Shown here: positions 3,446 through 22,690 of the stretch, in pieces
How positions within the stretch are numbered: the first letter of the stretch is position 1
How the letters are laid out: each line of letters starts with the position of its first letter
DNA from: a virus
Length of the DNA: 22,714 nt
Strand: one strand, 5' to 3'
Virus record (IMG/VR): IMGVR_UViG_3300036939_000001
Coordinates: 1 to 22,714 of that record
Made by a program: the position numbers and the translations under genes
The notes under the pieces: generated by a model
Told to the model about the DNA's origin: nothing
The model's input: only the letters and a program-made list of their open reading frames with translations
Databases searched by the model: none

Positions 3446-4200
3446 CTAGACGGCGGGCGGCCTATGTTTGCGCTTGTCGACGCCGCCTAGTTCAGTGTTA
3501 AGCGCTTCGACTAGGGCTAACATATCTTGCCAGCCCATACCAGCACGTACACGATCTTCGTACTGTGGAAAATATTGTTGCCAGCGTAGCGGCGGCTTGC
3601 CCTTCTTACGGTATAGGTTAGCATTCGCCGACGCGATTACGCCCGCGCGCATATCGGCACGCGTTTCGCCGAACGGTTCTATCTCTGCATACGCCATCCA
3701 TTCGGCGAATTCGCGGGCGCTTATATCACGCTGGGCGTGTCGTACGCTTCTATGCCCTAACGCTAGGGTTAATCTGAACCAGAAGCGCCGTTCGCGTCGG
3801 CTGGCAAGTTTTTTGTTAACTCTTTAACGTCTTCGTCTGTTAGCCCGTTGATCTTCTGGCATTCTTGAAAGACTAGGTTTAAGCCGTTCGCGTCTAGTTC
3901 GCCTAGTTCGCGTACGTCGCTGGCGCTTCGCCAGTCGAATAAGTTTTCGCCATCTTCACCAATTAAGCACATAGCAACCAGCCGCGCGCGAATGTTCGAT
4001 AAGTTCAGCTTACGCGGTCCAGCGTCGCGACCGCGCGAAGGCGCCGTGCTACCCGTTATCGACGCTTCGTACGCGTCGCGTTCGGCGCCCGACATTACAC
4101 GTAATAGTACCGTACCGTTCCACGGTGGTACGTCTAGTTCGAACCGCTGGGCGGCTTTTTCTGTCTTGATCCTGTTTAAGTCGGCGCGTGTTAAAGCCAT
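3446..4200 (-). CDS. Tail assembly chaperone, -1 frameshifted (gpGT-like) fusion
   Basis: Ribosomes that slip back one base at A AAA AAC (3808-3814) leave the short chaperone after residue N131 and read CTT GCC AGC and onward without a stop to 3446, giving about 251 residues. The joined part reads LASRRERRFWFRLTLALGHR, then AQRDISAREFAEWMAYAEI and EPFGETRADMRAGVIASANA. This is the typical second chaperone domain, with its EF(A)EW-AY-EPFG-R-D-R signature. The downstream frame has no Shine-Dalgarno of its own, and the internal Met of MAYAEIEPFG lies in the middle of this domain, so separate initiation would cut a conserved motif. Slippery site, open frame and domain content agree with the lambda G/GT arrangement. 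Frameshift efficiency cannot be read from sequence. Confidence 0.85.
3769..4200 (-). CDS. Tail assembly chaperone, short (gpG-like) form
   Basis: This frame encodes 143 residues from MALTRADLNR. The ATG at 4200 has AAGGAG nine bases upstream, so I prefer it to the longer frame opening at 4239. The middle and C-terminus show the pattern of phage tail assembly chaperones: MSGAERDAYEAS (about 36-47), LVAMCLIGEDGENLFDW and QKINGLTDEDVKELTKN, close to residue 131. Such chaperones coat the tape measure and recruit tail tube protein, and are absent from the virion. It sits directly before the tape measure as expected. The ending NLPADANGASGSD follows a slippery A AAA AAC, where part of the ribosomes should change frame into the longer product listed separately. 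Confidence 0.85.
   Translation of the reverse strand: MALTRADLNRIKTEKAAQRFELDVPPWNGTVLLRVMSGAERDAYEASITGSTAPSRGRDAGPRKLNLSNIRARLVAMCLIGEDGENLFDWRSASDVRELGELDANGLNLVFQECQKINGLTDEDVKELTKNLPADANGASGSD
3808..3814 (-). other. Programmed -1 ribosomal slippery site A AAA AAC
   Basis: On the minus strand the codons ACA AAA AAC (Thr-Lys-Asn) of the chaperone create the canonical -1 heptamer A AAA AAC in the correct phase. The zero frame stops about 40 bases later, while the -1 frame stays open to 3446 and continues into the conserved second chaperone domain. Lambda-like tail chaperones use this type of site. Confidence 0.85.
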
Positions 4201-4240
4201 TGTCGTACACTCCTTGCAATGAATATTACAATTTTGCAAC

Positions 4241-4263
4241 TAAGCGCATATCGTATGCGCTTA
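4241..4263. promoter_or_regulatory. Perfect 10+10 bp palindrome, candidate operator
   Basis: TAAGCGCATA and TATGCGCTTA are exact reverse complements separated by TCG. The palindrome ends three bases before the -35 box of the plus-strand promoter and lies 41 bases upstream of the chaperone start on the other strand. It could bind a dimeric regulator controlling the lone gene at 4346, or both directions. The binding protein is not identifiable here. Confidence 0.7.
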
Positions 4264-4266
4264 CGC

Positions 4267-4295
4267 TTGACAATTCCCGTATGCGGGTATATACT
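4267..4295 (+). promoter_or_regulatory. Sigma70-type promoter of the lone plus-strand gene
   Basis: TTGACA (4267-4272) is followed after 17 bases by TATACT (4290-4295), a near-consensus vegetative promoter with ideal spacing. The spacer contains the inverted repeat CCCG-tatg-CGGG (4276-4287), and CGTATGCG occurs both here (4278-4285) and in the palindrome just upstream (4252-4259). Transcription should begin near 4302 and read only the gene at 4346, given the terminator at 5246. Confidence 0.85.
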
Positions 4296-4319
4296 TCGTA
4301 CATAGGTTAGAGTTAATTA

Positions 4320-4337
4320 CGGCATTCGCCGAAGGAG
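4320..4337 (+). promoter_or_regulatory. Leader hairpin plus Shine-Dalgarno, shared with 21293-21310
   Basis: CGGC-attc-GCCG forms a small hairpin ending directly at AAGGAG (4332-4337), eight bases before the ATG at 4346. The 20-base string ACGGCATTCGCCGAAGGAGC recurs exactly in front of the first gene of the other plus-strand unit. In both places it lies about 25 bases after the -10 box. It may expose the ribosome site or stabilise the 5' end of the transcript. Confidence 0.7.
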
Positions 4338-4345
4338 CCATCGCA

Positions 4346-5230
4346 ATGATCAAGCTAACAGCCGCCCAGCTTACAAAGTTCGTCAAAGTCGTTACCCGCG
4401 CCAGCTATAACGCCATCATTAGCGACGCCGCCGCGTACTTTCAAGTCGACGTCGCCGACGTCGCCATCGTTGAATACAAGAACCCGTCAAACGTCGCATA
4501 TGTTCAGATCGGCGTACGCGGTTCAGCGGCGAACGTGCGAACATACGGGATCGTTAAGTATCGTTCGTGCTGGTTAGGACATAGCGGTTACGTGTTCACG
4601 GCTGGCGGCAAACTTGTGCAACCAGTCGCGCCGAAAGTTGACGACGAAGGGCGCTTGATCGATCAGTGCGAACAGTCGGCGCCAGTCGCCGACGTCGCGC
4701 CCGAAGCCCAGACGATCCCAGCATACCCAGTCCCGAAGAACGCGTACGCCGTCGAAATTAACGCCGATAGCGTAACAGTTTTTGCGCCGCTAGAAGGTGA
4801 CTTTTACGGCACGGCGTCACATCTTGCGACGAACTATAGCGGCGTCGACGTCGAACGCGGCTTGCGCTGGGCGCTTCGCGACGTCGATACCGTTCACGTA
4901 CTGATCGGCGCTGATCGTCCTAACGTCGAAGCATTCATCGCCAGCCTAGCCCGCATTGTTGCCCGGTTTGACGCTGTTACATACCGCCCGTTACCAGCCG
5001 TCGAACCCGCGTACGATCTGGCACCGCTGGCGCAACTAACGCCAGATCAACAAGCCAACGCTATTAGACGCTATGCGCGTTCGGCTGGGTTCAACGTTGC
5101 CACAGTTCGCAATAGTCCAAATATGCAAGCGAAAGCCTTCGCCGAATACCGTATTTATGTATTGCAACAGCCCGCCGCCGTCGTGTTAAAGTATTACGAT
5201 TTAACGCCCAGTACGCCAGCCGCAATCTAG
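4346..5230 (+). CDS. Moron-like gene of unknown function
   Basis: This 294-residue protein begins MIKLTAAQLTKFVKVVTRAS. The ATG is fixed by AAGGAG eight bases upstream. I do not recognise a family. It looks soluble: no signal peptide or membrane helix, and only two Cys (one in YRSCWLGHSGY, near residue 75). A Pro/Ala/Val-rich stretch around 110-135 could link two domains: an N-terminal part and a second alpha/beta-looking part (VEINADSVTVFAPL, then VHVLIGADRPNVEAFIASLA). The C-terminus has helical PDQQANAIRRYARSAGF. It is the only plus-strand gene inside the minus-strand structural operon and has its own promoter, palindromes and terminator. This is the classic layout of a moron expressed independently of the late genes. 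Superinfection exclusion, host alteration or anti-defence roles are possible but unproven. Confidence 0.85.
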   Translation: MIKLTAAQLTKFVKVVTRASYNAIISDAAAYFQVDVADVAIVEYKNPSNVAYVQIGVRGSAANVRTYGIVKYRSCWLGHSGYVFTAGGKLVQPVAPKVDDEGRLIDQCEQSAPVADVAPEAQTIPAYPVPKNAYAVEINADSVTVFAPLEGDFYGTASHLATNYSGVDVERGLRWALRDVDTVHVLIGADRPNVEAFIASLARIVARFDAVTYRPLPAVEPAYDLAPLAQLTPDQQANAIRRYARSAGFNVATVRNSPNMQAKAFAEYRIYVLQQPAAVVLKYYDLTPSTPAAI

Positions 5231-5245
5231 CCCAGACAAGCCAAC

Positions 5246-5276
5246 AGCGCCCAGCCGACAAGCTGGGCGCTTTTTT
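5246..5276 (+). terminator. Intrinsic terminator of the lone plus-strand gene
   Basis: AGCGCCCAG and CTGGGCGCT form a 9 bp GC-rich stem around the 8-base loop CCGACAAG, followed by six T. It begins 15 bases after the TAG stop. The T-run lies only on the plus-strand side, so it should stop rightward transcription while late leftward transcription passes. Confidence 0.92.
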
Positions 5277-5281
5277 GCGTA

Positions 5282-5728
5282 CTATGCTAACGTCGGGCGC
5301 CCGGCTACCTTAACCGTTATAGTCGCTTGTAGCTTGTCGTCGGGCGTAATGTCGCCCGGTTCGTACCCAGTAATAATACCGGGAAAAGACCATACCGTAT
5401 TATCGGCGTCGGGAAAAACAATTTCCCATTGATCTTTCGGGATCGTACCAGTACCAGCGAACGCCGATAGCACACCAGCCGCCGCGTTATGCGTTGGGTT
5501 CGACAAGATCAAGTTTACGTTAAACGATAATTCGCCGCCGTCCTTTAACCCGCCGATATGTTCGCGCCAGAAGCCCGGCGAACGCAAGTGCGTTACTTCG
5601 ACAGTATCGGCACTAAAGCCGGGCGGCGTTATGCTGTCAACTTCGGCTATTTCTACCCCATTACGCCGAAGATACGTACCCATTGATAGCATTGCTTCGC
5701 TATCGCCGTACACAATCGGATCAGACAT
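5282..5728 (-). CDS. Major tail tube protein
   Basis: The 148-residue protein starts MSDPIVYGDSEAMLSMGTYL, with AAGGAG nine bases before the ATG. The block ITPPGFSADTVEVTHLRSPG at about residues 33-52, then GLKDGGELSFNVNLIL, matches the siphovirus tail tube pattern (the loop and strands of the gpV-like beta-sandwich). The second half, GTIPKDQWEIVFPD, WSFPGIITGYEPGDITPDD and LQATITVKVAGRP, is also typical. Monomers polymerise as rings around the tape measure. It follows the tail terminator and the small protein at 5741 and would be followed by the chaperone, but the antisense gene at 4346 separates them. Confidence 0.88.
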   Translation of the reverse strand: MSDPIVYGDSEAMLSMGTYLRRNGVEIAEVDSITPPGFSADTVEVTHLRSPGFWREHIGGLKDGGELSFNVNLILSNPTHNAAAGVLSAFAGTGTIPKDQWEIVFPDADNTVWSFPGIITGYEPGDITPDDKLQATITVKVAGRPTLA

Positions 5729-6380: not shown

Positions 6381-6818
6381 CTAACTGGCATTATGATAGA
6401 CAAACACATCTATAAACCGCTGGTTATTCGTACTATCTGGTTCGAACTGATCGCGGGCGCTGTCATCTATCGTGATCGCGATTGACACATCGCCGACGAC
6501 GCCGCGATACCCAGCTAACCCGCCTTCGTCGGCGCGCGGGTTGCCCGACTTTAAGATACCAGCCGCGACGCGCGATACATTGAGATACGATTGATCCCAG
6601 ATGGTAAGCTGAACCCGCGCCCGCGTTAGTGCGTTCGAACCGGATACACGCTTGCCGACTTGCGGCGCGTCGATTACTTGATAGCTAATCGCGGGCTTGC
6701 TGGCGCCTTGCGGTATACGGTTCGGGTGCAACCAGACACGCGAACCCGCGTTCGGCACAGCGGCTACAATAGCCGGGCGTGACTTGACTAGTTGTACGAA
6801 CGCTTCTTCGAATAACAT
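6381..6818 (-). CDS. Tail terminator / tail completion protein (DUF3168-like)
   Basis: The 145-residue protein begins MLFEEAFVQLVKSRPAIVAA. The pattern RVWLHPNRIPQGASKPAISY (about 27-46), followed by VQLTIWDQSYLNVSRVAAGI, matches the DUF3168/tail terminator type of minor tail protein that caps the tail at the head-proximal end. The ending IDVFVYHNAS is beta-like. It follows the HK97 gp10-like gene and precedes the tail tube, the usual place. The ATG at 6818 directly abuts the 97-base repeat element and has no visible AAGGAG, which is unusual here. Translation may depend on that element or on coupling. Confidence 0.8.
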   Translation of the reverse strand: MLFEEAFVQLVKSRPAIVAAVPNAGSRVWLHPNRIPQGASKPAISYQVIDAPQVGKRVSGSNALTRARVQLTIWDQSYLNVSRVAAGILKSGNPRADEGGLAGYRGVVGDVSIAITIDDSARDQFEPDSTNNQRFIDVFVYHNAS

Positions 6819-6819
6819 A

Positions 6820-6916
6820 GTTAATGCTGTGAACGCTTCGGCGAACTATACGTAAAGATAAAATTTATAACTTTTTTTCGATCCGCGTAATTGAAAATAC
6901 CCTTAACAGCTTTAAC
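6820..6916. repeat. 97-base dispersed repeat, copy A
   Basis: This copy fills the gap between the genes at 6912-7316 and 6381-6818, overlapping the stop of the first and abutting the start of the second. It matches copy B (21120-21216) at 83 of 97 positions by my count, without gaps. Two cores are invariant: ATACGTAAAGATAAAATT, and GATCCGCGTAATTGAAAATA (6880-6899). The ends GTTAATGCTGT and ACAGCTTTAAC are inverted repeats with one mismatch. It is markedly more AT-rich than its surroundings. Confidence 0.9.
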
Positions 6917-7316: not shown

Positions 7317-7704
7317 CTGGTGGTATTCTTTCGGTCGCTAGCATTGTGATCGTACGCGTGTCGTCGTGCGATACGGCGGTAATATTATGCACGTCGCTAT
7401 CGTTCACGATCAAGCGATCTTGTATGGTAATGGTAGGATAGAACCCGAATATCGTTACGTTATAGTTCGTACTAGCGAATACTTGCGCTTCGCGTCGATC
7501 TTCGCCGCCGCCCGCCGCTGGTTCTACATAGCCGCGAAGTTCGCCCAGCGGTAACGGGCGCCAGTCGATTACTTCTTCGTTAACGCTGTTAACGGTTTTA
7601 TAACCGTGATCTATTCGCAATGCACTAGCGAAGTGCGTATCGAACCCGCGCCGCCCGCGCCGAAGCATAAATCGCGTATGTACTAACGGTGATCTAGCTG
7701 GCAT
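7294..7704 (-). CDS. Head closure / head-tail adaptor protein
   Basis: The 136-residue protein begins MPARSPLVHTRFMLRRGRRG. The central region is beta-rich: ELRGYVEPAAGG, then DRREAQVFASTNYNVTIFGF and ITIQDRLIVNDSDVHNITAV. This fits the Phage_H_T_join/SPP1 gp16-like group of head closure proteins that plug the portal channel and receive the tail. Gene order (connector, closure, gp10-like, terminator) supports it strongly. It overlaps both neighbours (7694-7704 and 7294-7316). Assignment rests on pattern and position; closure and stopper proteins diverge fast. Confidence 0.75.
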   Translation of the reverse strand: MPARSPLVHTRFMLRRGRRGFDTHFASALRIDHGYKTVNSVNEEVIDWRPLPLGELRGYVEPAAGGGEDRREAQVFASTNYNVTIFGFYPTITIQDRLIVNDSDVHNITAVSHDDTRTITMLATERIPPDESEDHS

Positions 7705-8092
7705 AGCGCGCCGCCCAGCTTGTGATATATTCGCGTTCGTTAAATACCGTATACACTTGTTCGGCTATGTCGAACCCGCTATCGGCGCCGCCGCCAGTAC
7801 TGGCACCGCTGGCATACTGGGCGCGAAGTAACGCCGCATTCGCCCGCAGTTCGGCGGCTATTTTCGCGCCATCTGTCGACAGCGAACCCAGCCGTATAAC
7901 CTTCTGAACTAGCACTTCGTCGGCGGCGATTGTTTCAAGTGCCATAGCTGCCGCCAGCAAGACGCTAGTATTGTTAAAGAGTAAGAACGCGTCTAGTTCT
8001 TCGTCACGAAAGATCGGATCGTCGGCGTACTTATCATTGATACGTAACCGGATCAAGCCGATGTTCGTCGATAGATCGTACGTGAATGCCAT
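7694..8092 (-). CDS. Head-tail connector (gp6-like adaptor)
   Basis: I start this at ATG 8092 (MAFTYDLSTNIGLIRLRIND, 132 residues), because AAGGGATC stands just upstream; a longer frame to 8134 has no ribosome site. The N-terminal pattern GLIRLRINDKYADDPIFRDE, then ELDAFLLFNNTSVLLAAAMA, is that of helical gp6-type connectors that form a ring under the portal. The rest is helical and Ala-rich with a Gly-rich patch (STGGGADSG) near residue 104. It lies between the gene after the major capsid and the closure protein, as expected. Confidence 0.78.
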   Translation of the reverse strand: MAFTYDLSTNIGLIRLRINDKYADDPIFRDEELDAFLLFNNTSVLLAAAMALETIAADEVLVQKVIRLGSLSTDGAKIAAELRANAALLRAQYASGASTGGGADSGFDIAEQVYTVFNEREYITSWAARYAS

Positions 8093-8148
8093 TATGATCC
8101 CTTCGCGTAAGCGCGTATAGCCCAGCGTACGCAACGCTGGGCTAGTTA

Positions 8149-14160: not shown

Positions 14161-14416
14161 CTATTCGCCTTCTTAATTACAACAATGATACGCGACGCGT
14201 TGCTAGACTGTAAAAGATTACGCGTATCTAACGCAATTATGCCCGCATACGACTGTAAAGTGTTTTCGTCAACTTGACAGATTATAGCCCATTGCAATCA
14301 ATCGTTAGGCGTCGATCCATCCTAAAGCCCGACAGCGACCGAAGGCATACAATCTAGCGTACGCGGTTCGAATACCGCTAGAACCGCGTACGCGACCTTC
14401 TGGCGCGTTATACACA
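14161..14416 (-). promoter_or_regulatory. Non-coding gap before the portal gene, with hairpin and -10-like box
   Basis: No gene is evident. The gap holds a 13 bp hairpin (14357-14393), two copies of GACTGTAAA (14206-14214 and 14251-14259) and, on the minus strand, a perfect TATAAT (14281-14286) without a good -35 box. On the plus strand TTGACA (14274-14279) overlaps the same place but lacks a matching -10. The gap may carry an activator-dependent late promoter for the head genes and an RNA element at the end of the lysis transcript. Confidence 0.5.
14357..14393. repeat. 13 bp perfect hairpin with a competing inner hairpin
   Basis: GCGTACGCGGTTC (14357-14369) and GAACCGCGTACGC (14381-14393) pair exactly around an 11-base loop. 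A smaller hairpin GCGGT-tcgaat-ACCGC (14363-14378) uses part of the same arm, so only one can form at a time. Outer GAAGG (14341-14345) and CCTTC (14396-14400) could extend it. No T-run follows, so it is not a standard terminator. Confidence 0.8.
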
Positions 14417-21119: not shown

Positions 21120-21216
21120 GTTAATGCTGTGAAACGTTCAGCGATCTATACGTAAAGATAAAATTCAAATTTTTTTCTTGATCCGCGTAATTGAAAATAC
21201 GCTTAACAGGATTAAC
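21120..21216. repeat. 97-base dispersed repeat, copy B
   Basis: This copy lies in the divergent control region and matches copy A (6820-6916) at about 86% of positions without gaps. Invariant cores are at 21146-21165 and 21180-21200. The ends GTTAATGCTGT and ACAGGATTAAC are inverted with one mismatch, at a different position from copy A. It ends 22 bases before the -35 box of the rightward promoter and sits upstream of the leftward extended -10 box. Confidence 0.9.
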
Positions 21217-21238: not shown

Positions 21239-21267
21239 TTGACTTCGCTTTAGCTAGCGATTATAAT
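21239..21267 (+). promoter_or_regulatory. Near-consensus sigma70 promoter of the rightward operon
   Basis: TTGACT (21239-21244) and TATAAT (21262-21267) are separated by exactly 17 bases. The -10 is a perfect match and the -35 differs at one base. Transcription should begin near 21274 and read the GIY-YIG-like and TOPRIM genes. It is likely an early promoter served by host RNA polymerase. Confidence 0.88.
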
Positions 21268-21292
21268 ATAGACGGTTCACACCTTTAACGTA

Positions 21293-21310
21293 CGGCATTC
21301 GCCGAAGGAG
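21293..21310 (+). promoter_or_regulatory. Leader hairpin plus Shine-Dalgarno, second copy
   Basis: CGGC-attc-GCCG followed directly by AAGGAG (21305-21310), eleven bases before the ATG at 21322. The sequence from ACGGC to GGAGC is identical over 20 bases to the leader of the lone gene at 4346, and is placed at the same distance (about 25 bases) from its -10 box. Confidence 0.75.
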
Positions 21311-21321
21311 CTAACCCGATA

Positions 21322-21768
21322 ATGGCTGGCGTATACCTGTTGCACTTCTTCGACAAGATTAACCCAGATCGCCCAGCCCGACATTACTTAGGCTATGGCG
21401 CCGACATAGCCGCGCGTACCGAATGCCAGCTAGCTGGGAATGAACGCGCCGCCGCCTTGCCATACTTCGCCGCCCAGCGGGGTATACCGGGCGTCGTTGC
21501 GCGGGTATGGGGTCACGCAACACGCCGCGACGAATACCGCTTGCGCCAACTAAAAAACAACCCGAAGTTATGCCCGATCTGTAACCCAGCGCTAGCGCTT
21601 CGCACTGTTAAGACGAAGCGCGGGTACTGGGTTACGTTACGTATCGGCGACCGCACGCAACCCAGATATGGCGATCTGGCGACGTTGCCGCCGTTCAAGT
21701 ACCGTCCGAAAGCCCGTATTCGTCTAGACGGTTCGCACAATTACAAGGAGTTAGAACACAATGGCTAA
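21322..21768 (+). CDS. GIY-YIG-like nuclease domain protein
   Basis: The 148-residue protein begins MAGVYLLHFFDKINPDRPAR. It fits the phage group of short GIY-YIG-like proteins: VYLLHF (GIY-equivalent, Y5), ARHYLGYGADIAART (YIG-equivalent HYLGYG at 21-26, with R32 as candidate catalytic Arg), VARVWGHATRRDEYRLRQLK (E71 as candidate metal ligand) and a Cys pair CPIC (84-87). The C-terminal third, GYWVTLRIGDRTQPRYGDLA, is basic and beta-like, perhaps for DNA binding. Its stop overlaps the start of the TOPRIM gene by eight bases. Whether it cuts DNA as a homing, recombination or defence enzyme, or has lost activity, cannot be told by eye. Confidence 0.75.
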   Translation: MAGVYLLHFFDKINPDRPARHYLGYGADIAARTECQLAGNERAAALPYFAAQRGIPGVVARVWGHATRRDEYRLRQLKNNPKLCPICNPALALRTVKTKRGYWVTLRIGDRTQPRYGDLATLPPFKYRPKARIRLDGSHNYKELEHNG

Positions 21769-22690
21769 ACAACTTTTTCAAGCATTTAACTTTCGGCGGG
21801 ATACGCTGGCGTTGATCGAACACGCGAACGCAATCATAGCTGCATATCAAGCGCAAGGCTATACGCTTACGCTTCGACAGCTTTACTATCAGTTCGTGTC
21901 GCGCGACTTGCTGGCGAATAACCAGCAAAACTATAACCGACTAGGCGAAACGATCAGCAACGCCCGTCTAGCTGGGCTTATTGACTGGGCGGCTATCGAA
22001 GATCGAACACGTAACCTTCGGTCGCTAGCGTACTGGGATAGCCCAGCGTCGATTATGTATTCGGCGGCGTATTCATTTCGGATCGACAAATGGGCGCGCC
22101 AGCCGAACCGGATCGAATGCTGGGTAGAAAAAGACGCCTTGATCGGCGTGCTAGAACGCGTATGTAATCGGCACGAAGTACCGTACTTCGCGTGTCGCGG
22201 CTATGTGTCACAATCCGAAATGTACGGCGCCGCCGAACGGATCGCCCGGTATATTGAAAACGGGCAAGACGTCACGATCTTACATCTAGGCGATCACGAT
22301 CCTAGCGGGATCGATATGACACGCGATATGATCGACCGCTTCGAACTGTTCTTATCGGGTATGTCGTACGGCGCTAGTGTTAACGTCGTACGGCTGGCGC
22401 TGAACTATGATCAAGTCATAAGCTATAACCCGCCGCCGAACCCAGCGAAAGCGACCGATAGTCGTTTCGAAGACTATCGGCGAACGTATGGTAATGAAAG
22501 CTGGGAACTAGACGCACTAGAACCAGCCGTTATTACGGAACTGATCGACGTCAATATTTTAACGTTACGCGACGACGATCTATGGTACGAAGCCCAAGCC
22601 GAAGAAAGAACGCAAAAAGCGACGCTACAAGCCGCCGCGCGCCGCTGGGCTGATGTGTCGGCGTACTTGAACAATTCAGAAGGAGCATAG
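21761..22690 (+). CDS. TOPRIM protein, TopoVI-A/Spo11-like
   Basis: The 309-residue protein begins MAKQLFQAFNFRRDTLALIE; AAGGAG lies inside the previous gene ten bases before the ATG. An N-terminal winged-helix-like part contains TLTLRQLYYQFVSRDLL, where Y42-Y43 resemble the catalytic Tyr motif of topoisomerase VI A/Spo11. The TOPRIM part shows ECWVEKDALIGVLE (E123), GYVSQSEMYGAAERIARY and ILHLGDHDPSGIDMTRDM (D178, D180): the Glu and DxD metal ligands. The C-terminus has YNPPPNPAKATDSRFEDYR and ESWELDALEP, conserved in phage members as far as I recall. It may nick or break DNA in recombination or replication initiation. No B subunit is seen in the window. Confidence 0.82.
   Translation: MAKQLFQAFNFRRDTLALIEHANAIIAAYQAQGYTLTLRQLYYQFVSRDLLANNQQNYNRLGETISNARLAGLIDWAAIEDRTRNLRSLAYWDSPASIMYSAAYSFRIDKWARQPNRIECWVEKDALIGVLERVCNRHEVPYFACRGYVSQSEMYGAAERIARYIENGQDVTILHLGDHDPSGIDMTRDMIDRFELFLSGMSYGASVNVVRLALNYDQVISYNPPPNPAKATDSRFEDYRRTYGNESWELDALEPAVITELIDVNILTLRDDDLWYEAQAEERTQKATLQAAARRWADVSAYLNNSEGA

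Follow-up and report, generated by a model that had tools for sequence, protein, structure and literature searches.

The window, the whole 22,714-base IMG/VR fragment, contains a leftward structural operon (terminases, portal, Mu F-like protein, capsid, cement, tail tube, chaperone, T protein, and tape measure) and a rightward gene pair at its right end. Between the tail tube and chaperone genes, the leftward operon is interrupted by a plus-strand open reading frame of 294 codons, as reported in the first-pass annotation (Table 1). The start of the chaperone gene was corrected from TTG 4239 to ATG 4200 on the minus strand, which is preceded by AAGGAG, so the spacer upstream of the antisense gene comprises positions 4201-4345. 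The frame at the antisense gene is open for 319 codons, versus a longest frame of 262 codons when the region was dinucleotide-shuffled 1000 times. The minus strand across it contains 14-16 stops per frame, and the gene is thus no shadow ORF. Both its codon fit (0.134 per codon) and its GC content by codon position (0.63/0.44/0.61) are typical for genes of this phage.

Table 1. Features of the cassette, its flanking genes, and the rightward operon used for comparison.
Feature	Position	Strand	Remarks
Tail assembly chaperone	3769..4200	-	phrog_344, 5e-19; left boundary of the cassette
Proposed operator, perfect inverted repeat TAAGCGCATA-TCG-TATGCGCTTA	4241..4263		10+10 with a 3-nt centre
Predicted sigma-70-type promoter TTGACA-17-TATACT	4267..4295	+	11 of 12 consensus match
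Second palindrome of the first-pass annotation, CCCGTATGCGGG	4276..4287		4+4 around 4; weak, probably chance
Leader element TACGGCATTCGCCGAAGGAGC, including ribosome site	4318..4338	+	identical to 21291-21311
Antisense gene	4346..5230	+	294 aa, pI 6.8, predicted soluble; ORF and codon statistics
Intrinsic terminator, one-directional	5246..5276	+	10-bp stem then T6; z -4.4
Major tail tube protein	5282..5728	-	Pfam PF16461, 2e-14; phrog_158; right boundary of the cassette
Promoter TTGACT-17-TATAAT and second leader copy	21239..21311	+	5' of the topoisomerase operon; regulatory comparison
Rightward operon: 148-aa protein and DNA topoisomerase VI A-like protein	21322..22690	+	phrog_6247, 1e-109

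Most of the control elements that had been annotated for the antisense gene were found again. The promoter was recovered with a single deviation from the consensus, and transcription is expected to start near position 4302. The gene has its own ribosome site, AAGGAG, located 8 nt before the ATG, and the terminator is followed by a U-tract in the plus direction only. The perfect 10+10 palindrome next to the promoter is rare by chance, since a 10+3+10 palindrome arose in only two of 2000 spacer shuffles. No further copy of it occurs within the window even when three mismatches are allowed, and neither the exact palindrome nor the exact leader was found in other viral contigs. On the other hand, the second palindrome claimed for the spacer did not hold up as a comparable element. 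Seven short repeats of the size of CCCGTATGCGGG occur in the spacer versus 3.9 in shuffles, and a direct repeat of 8 nt, the length of the word that it shares with the first palindrome, turns up in 274 of 2000 spacer shuffles. The argument for a cooperative repressor or activator at two equivalent palindromes fails on these frequencies and was rejected.

The leader TACGGCATTCGCCGAAGGAGC has only two copies in the window, one before the antisense gene and one before the rightward topoisomerase operon, and a 21-nt match with the intergenic region around 21291-21311 was reached in none of 2000 spacer shuffles. The possibility that the leader forms a stable RNA hairpin was tried and rejected (z 0.5 and 0.1). 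The topoisomerase VI A-like protein has its best phage match in Pseudanabaena phage Pam3 (55%), and the 148-aa protein encoded 5' of it is basic (pI 10.2) and has no family match. Judging by this gene content, the rightward operon would be of the early type.

A second shared word was observed in a relative of the phage, L003, whose terminase is 77% identical. An opposite-strand gene of L003 encodes a DNA polymerase processivity factor, i.e., a sliding clamp (phrog_947, E 1e-16), and its promoter region reads TAAGCGCATATCGTA-G-TTGACA-17-TATACT. The first 15 nt of the cassette palindrome recur upstream of this promoter, and the -35 and -10 hexamers as well as the 17-nt spacing are identical in both. 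The distance from the 15-nt word to the -35 box is 26 nt in the cassette and 16 nt in L003, a shift of exactly 10 bp or one helical turn. Against the corresponding intergenic region of L003, the match was attained in 0 of 2000 shuffles; against the whole of L003 it is unexceptional (the longest match in 500 shuffles was 16 nt), so its weight rests on its position. Six copies of the half-site TAAGCGYAT are present in the window and L003 together, five of them in intergenic DNA, which makes up 7-11% of the sequence; because three of the six copies defined the motif, this count is supporting rather than independent evidence. The sites include the portal leader of L003 and a site 33 nt upstream of the rightward promoter in the window, where the window's own early promoter has only a diverged half-site (21197-21205). 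When 2.9 million viral contigs were scanned for the combined pattern of operator and promoter, only L003 and one unrelated coding match, common to three contigs of an unrelated phage, were found. Since the leader and the operator-promoter unit are both shared with early or replication operons, it is likely that the cassette carries control signals of the early regulon rather than those of the late operon. Expression early in infection, one of the two options of the first-pass annotation, thereby gains strong independent support from two different words.

The tube/chaperone junction was surveyed by running profiles for the tube, chaperone, and T proteins over all fetched loci, and the 75 loci with a tube gene plus a chaperone or T gene were counted, some of them near-duplicates. 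The junction is closed in 68 of these, with gaps mostly below 150 nt and at most about 235 nt, so the statement that it is normally uninterrupted was borne out, and the interruption is unusual though not unique. The junction is also closed in the prophage-like relatives L038, from a Chloroflexi MAG, and L040, from an Anaerolineaceae MAG. The remaining seven loci carry inserts unrelated to the cassette: a sense HNH endonuclease (L069), a sulfotransferase-like gene (L075), an antisense gene for a 385-aa HTH/HNH-type endonuclease (L083), an antisense HNH endonuclease gene together with methyltransferase- and glycosyltransferase-like genes (L090), methyltransferase/glycosyltransferase-like genes (L105 and L106), and two small genes (L122). 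Thus, the junction appears to behave as an insertion hotspot for accessory genes (7/75), which makes it worth mining. The insertion is not datable because L002 and L003, which are closest to the phage (69-77% in capsid and terminase), end before the junction; a search via the tail T gene for the missing junction yielded no closer relative.

A virion or tail-assembly protein required at this position might be considered from the location between two tail genes, as might an assembly artefact fusing unrelated fragments in a metagenome contig judged without reads. Both are very improbable. The gene runs against the tail genes, ends at a terminator of its own, and carries early signals, and it was found at this place in none of the relatives, being absent from the 75 other tail loci. 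An artificial fusion, for its part, is opposed by the uniform composition and codon use, by the collinearity of both flanks with relatives, and by the 21-nt leader, whose second copy lies at the other end of the contig. Another candidate is a homing endonuclease of the free-standing type, or a decayed and diverged remnant of one, that invaded the junction, where relatives have HNH-family genes in antisense (L083 and L090) and in sense (L069) orientation. The L083 and L090 genes have the same orientation against the tail operon as the antisense gene; however, they encode recognizable nucleases, and no promoter of 10/12 or better was found for either of them. Whereas the endonuclease inserts of relatives match their families at E 1e-26 to 1e-73, the 294-aa protein matches no endonuclease family, including the HNH, GIY-YIG, LAGLIDADG, PD-(D/E)xK, and Vsr-type nuclease domains of Pfam and PHROGs. 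Its charge is near neutral (27 K/R and 27 D/E), it has only two cysteines, and an early-regulon leader is not usually brought by homing genes. An endonuclease origin is therefore distinctly unlikely.

The first-pass annotation described the protein as matching nothing known and called for structure prediction and a remote homology search; the outcome agrees with its description at the level of sequence, family, and fold. No homologue was found in Pfam, PHROGs, NCBIfam, PADLOC, or PDB sequences, in phages and plasmids (tblastn), in IMG/VR, in GTDB species genomes, or in the 17 records behind the related loci. The 400 genomes of the phylum of L038 (Chloroflexi MAG, G011) contained no accepted relative; four matches at E 6e-4 to 6e-3 (15-20 bits), which fall in different parts of the protein, were taken as chance. 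AlphaFold without an alignment gave a pLDDT of 37 for the full length and 63 for the last 80 residues, with a few helices around residues 226-273, and a fold search with this C-terminus returned no match. A likeness to helices of the Lsr2/TilS type was also considered, and the TilS similarity (E 0.02-0.13) was too weak for use. The N-terminal part is basic, residues around 100-130 form an acidic linker, and the C-terminal part is helical with basic residues. No stretch qualifies as transmembrane (highest hydropathy over 19 residues, 1.37). The protein thus looks soluble and without nuclease motifs, and nothing in its predicted features marks it as a nuclease, a membrane exclusion protein, or a known defence protein. 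The proposed exclusion or anti-defence function found no backing in its sequence, as the PADLOC, Pfam, PHROGs, and structure searches were all empty and no PADLOC-DB family matched even at E up to 10. As a guess, a role in host takeover or counter-defence is favoured, with prophage exclusion in second place. Alternatively, the gene could be an early replication or regulatory gene that a rearrangement brought in from a related phage's early region and that acts in replication or gene control instead of host conflict. The regulatory kit that it shares with the topoisomerase and clamp operons and the basic, helical C-terminus would fit such a role, but the protein resembles no family of replication or regulatory proteins and the fold search with its C-terminus was empty, which leaves this explanation unlikely.

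Morons are defined as usually independently expressed genes that a comparison of related phages reveals as insertions in an operon (PMC2629481). The cassette has a predicted promoter and a terminator of its own and lies between genes that adjoin in 68 of 75 surveyed loci, none of which carries the antisense gene, and by this definition it would count as a moron. An antisense position within late genes has previously been noted as a typical feature of accessory loci (PMC7067206). A documented example is Tab of Pseudomonas phage JBD26, which lies opposite to the late operon under its own promoter (PMC10884400). Like the cassette gene, Tab is inserted between structural or packaging genes and is unlike any protein of known function in sequence. 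It differs in its location between the terminase genes, in its length of 83 residues, and in being a prophage-provided defence paired with an anti-Tab gene (PMC10884400), whereas the cassette encodes 294 residues at the tube/chaperone junction under early-type control signals. The ant moron of the P22 family is independently expressed and likewise sits at a variable late-operon site that is closed in some relatives, and it bears sites for its own regulators (PMC2629481). Unlike the cassette, it encodes regulators that are known (mnt, arc, ant), and its place is in front of the tailspike gene (PMC2629481). The two show no homology. The leader resembles the SAS/ESAS elements of Cluster K mycobacteriophages, in which a short word over the ribosome-binding site is repeated before a subset of genes (PMC3203893). 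The SAS consensus is GGGATAGGAGCCC with 11-19 copies per genome (PMC3203893), whereas TACGGCATTCGCCGAAGGAGC, at the equivalent place, is a different sequence with two copies in the fragment; the SAS consensus itself was not found there.

The likeness to Tab brings up a classical prophage moron, expressed constitutively from a silent prophage and protecting or altering the lysogen by exclusion or defence. The shared architecture (PMC10884400), the antisense orientation to lytic genes, which has been named as a hallmark of such loci (PMC7067206), and the near-consensus promoter speak for it. However, the promoter and leader match early or replication operons, which are normally kept off in a prophage, and the early operator that the cassette has in common with a relative speaks against expression without a regulator. 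In addition, neither an integrase nor a repressor is present within the 22.7-kb fragment, which has no lysogeny genes, the protein has no PADLOC match, and it lacks the transmembrane segment seen in many exclusion proteins. We consider constitutive prophage expression unlikely.

We hypothesize, with a probability of about 60%, that the locus is a self-contained, moron-like accessory cassette of ~1.05 kb between the tube and chaperone genes, provided with control signals of an early or replication regulon. Its architecture, its insertion relative to other tail operons, and its two shared regulatory words are read directly from the DNA. Against this explanation, the composition is native and there is no sign of recent foreign origin (56.3% GC in the gene versus 53.8% in the window). 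A foreign base composition is frequent among morons but does not define them. We infer the regulator, the timing, and the late silencing of the cassette as follows. A regulator of the phage family would bind TAAGCGYATA beside the cassette promoter, just as it would at the relative's replication operon. Early in infection or upon induction, the host sigma-70 polymerase would produce a transcript of ~975 nt from about 4302 to the terminator at about 5276, and the shared leader with its built-in ribosome site would give the cassette the translation behaviour of an early operon. The one-way terminator would shield the tail genes from this transcript and let the late leftward polymerase read through, which would have to cross the cassette on its way to the chaperone and tape measure genes. 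In the late phase, opposing polymerases and tail mRNA complementary to the cassette transcript would tend to shut the antisense gene down, so that its expression would be confined to the early phase. The product would be a soluble cytoplasmic protein, most likely directed at the host or its defences. It is also conceivable, if rather doubtful, that operator, promoter, leader, gene, and terminator move jointly between the early region and late operons of one phage family, bringing early control with them, and that the reverse orientation serves as a timer through shut-off by collision with, and annealing of, late tail transcription. Accessory cassettes of this kind are already known; what is new is the early-regulon kit that this one shares. 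Extra genes in late operons are one of the main sources of functions that act against phages or change the host, and they are unrecognizable by sequence. The timing of this antisense gene is indicated by its control signals and not by its protein, and early-regulon words copied into a tail operon could offer a way of finding similar genes in phages without a cultured host.

The host phylum is probably Chloroflexota, to judge solely from the relatives L038 (Chloroflexi MAG) and L040 (Anaerolineaceae MAG). At 40-50% identity, the structural module is common to viruses of methanogenic archaea, Chloroflexi, and Actinobacteria, examples being L033 (a Methanoculleus virus), L038, and L040. Several other sequence elements were observed in the window. 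An inverted repeat with perfect 11-bp arms, TAGCCCAGCGT/ACGCTGGGCTA, and a loop of 5 nt is located at 8118-8144 near the start of the gene 7694-8134. The word TATGCGGGYATA occurs just twice, at 4280-4291 on the plus strand across the spacer/-10 region of the cassette promoter and at 14238-14249 on the minus strand in the portal leader, and may be a shared site for another regulator. The portal gene is preceded by a 256-nt gap (14161-14416) with a perfect 13-bp inverted repeat at 14357-14393, and the minus-strand sequence TAACGATTGATTGCAA...TATAATC.GTCAAGT (about 14307-14271), a candidate second late promoter, is conserved in L003 at about 6817-6852.
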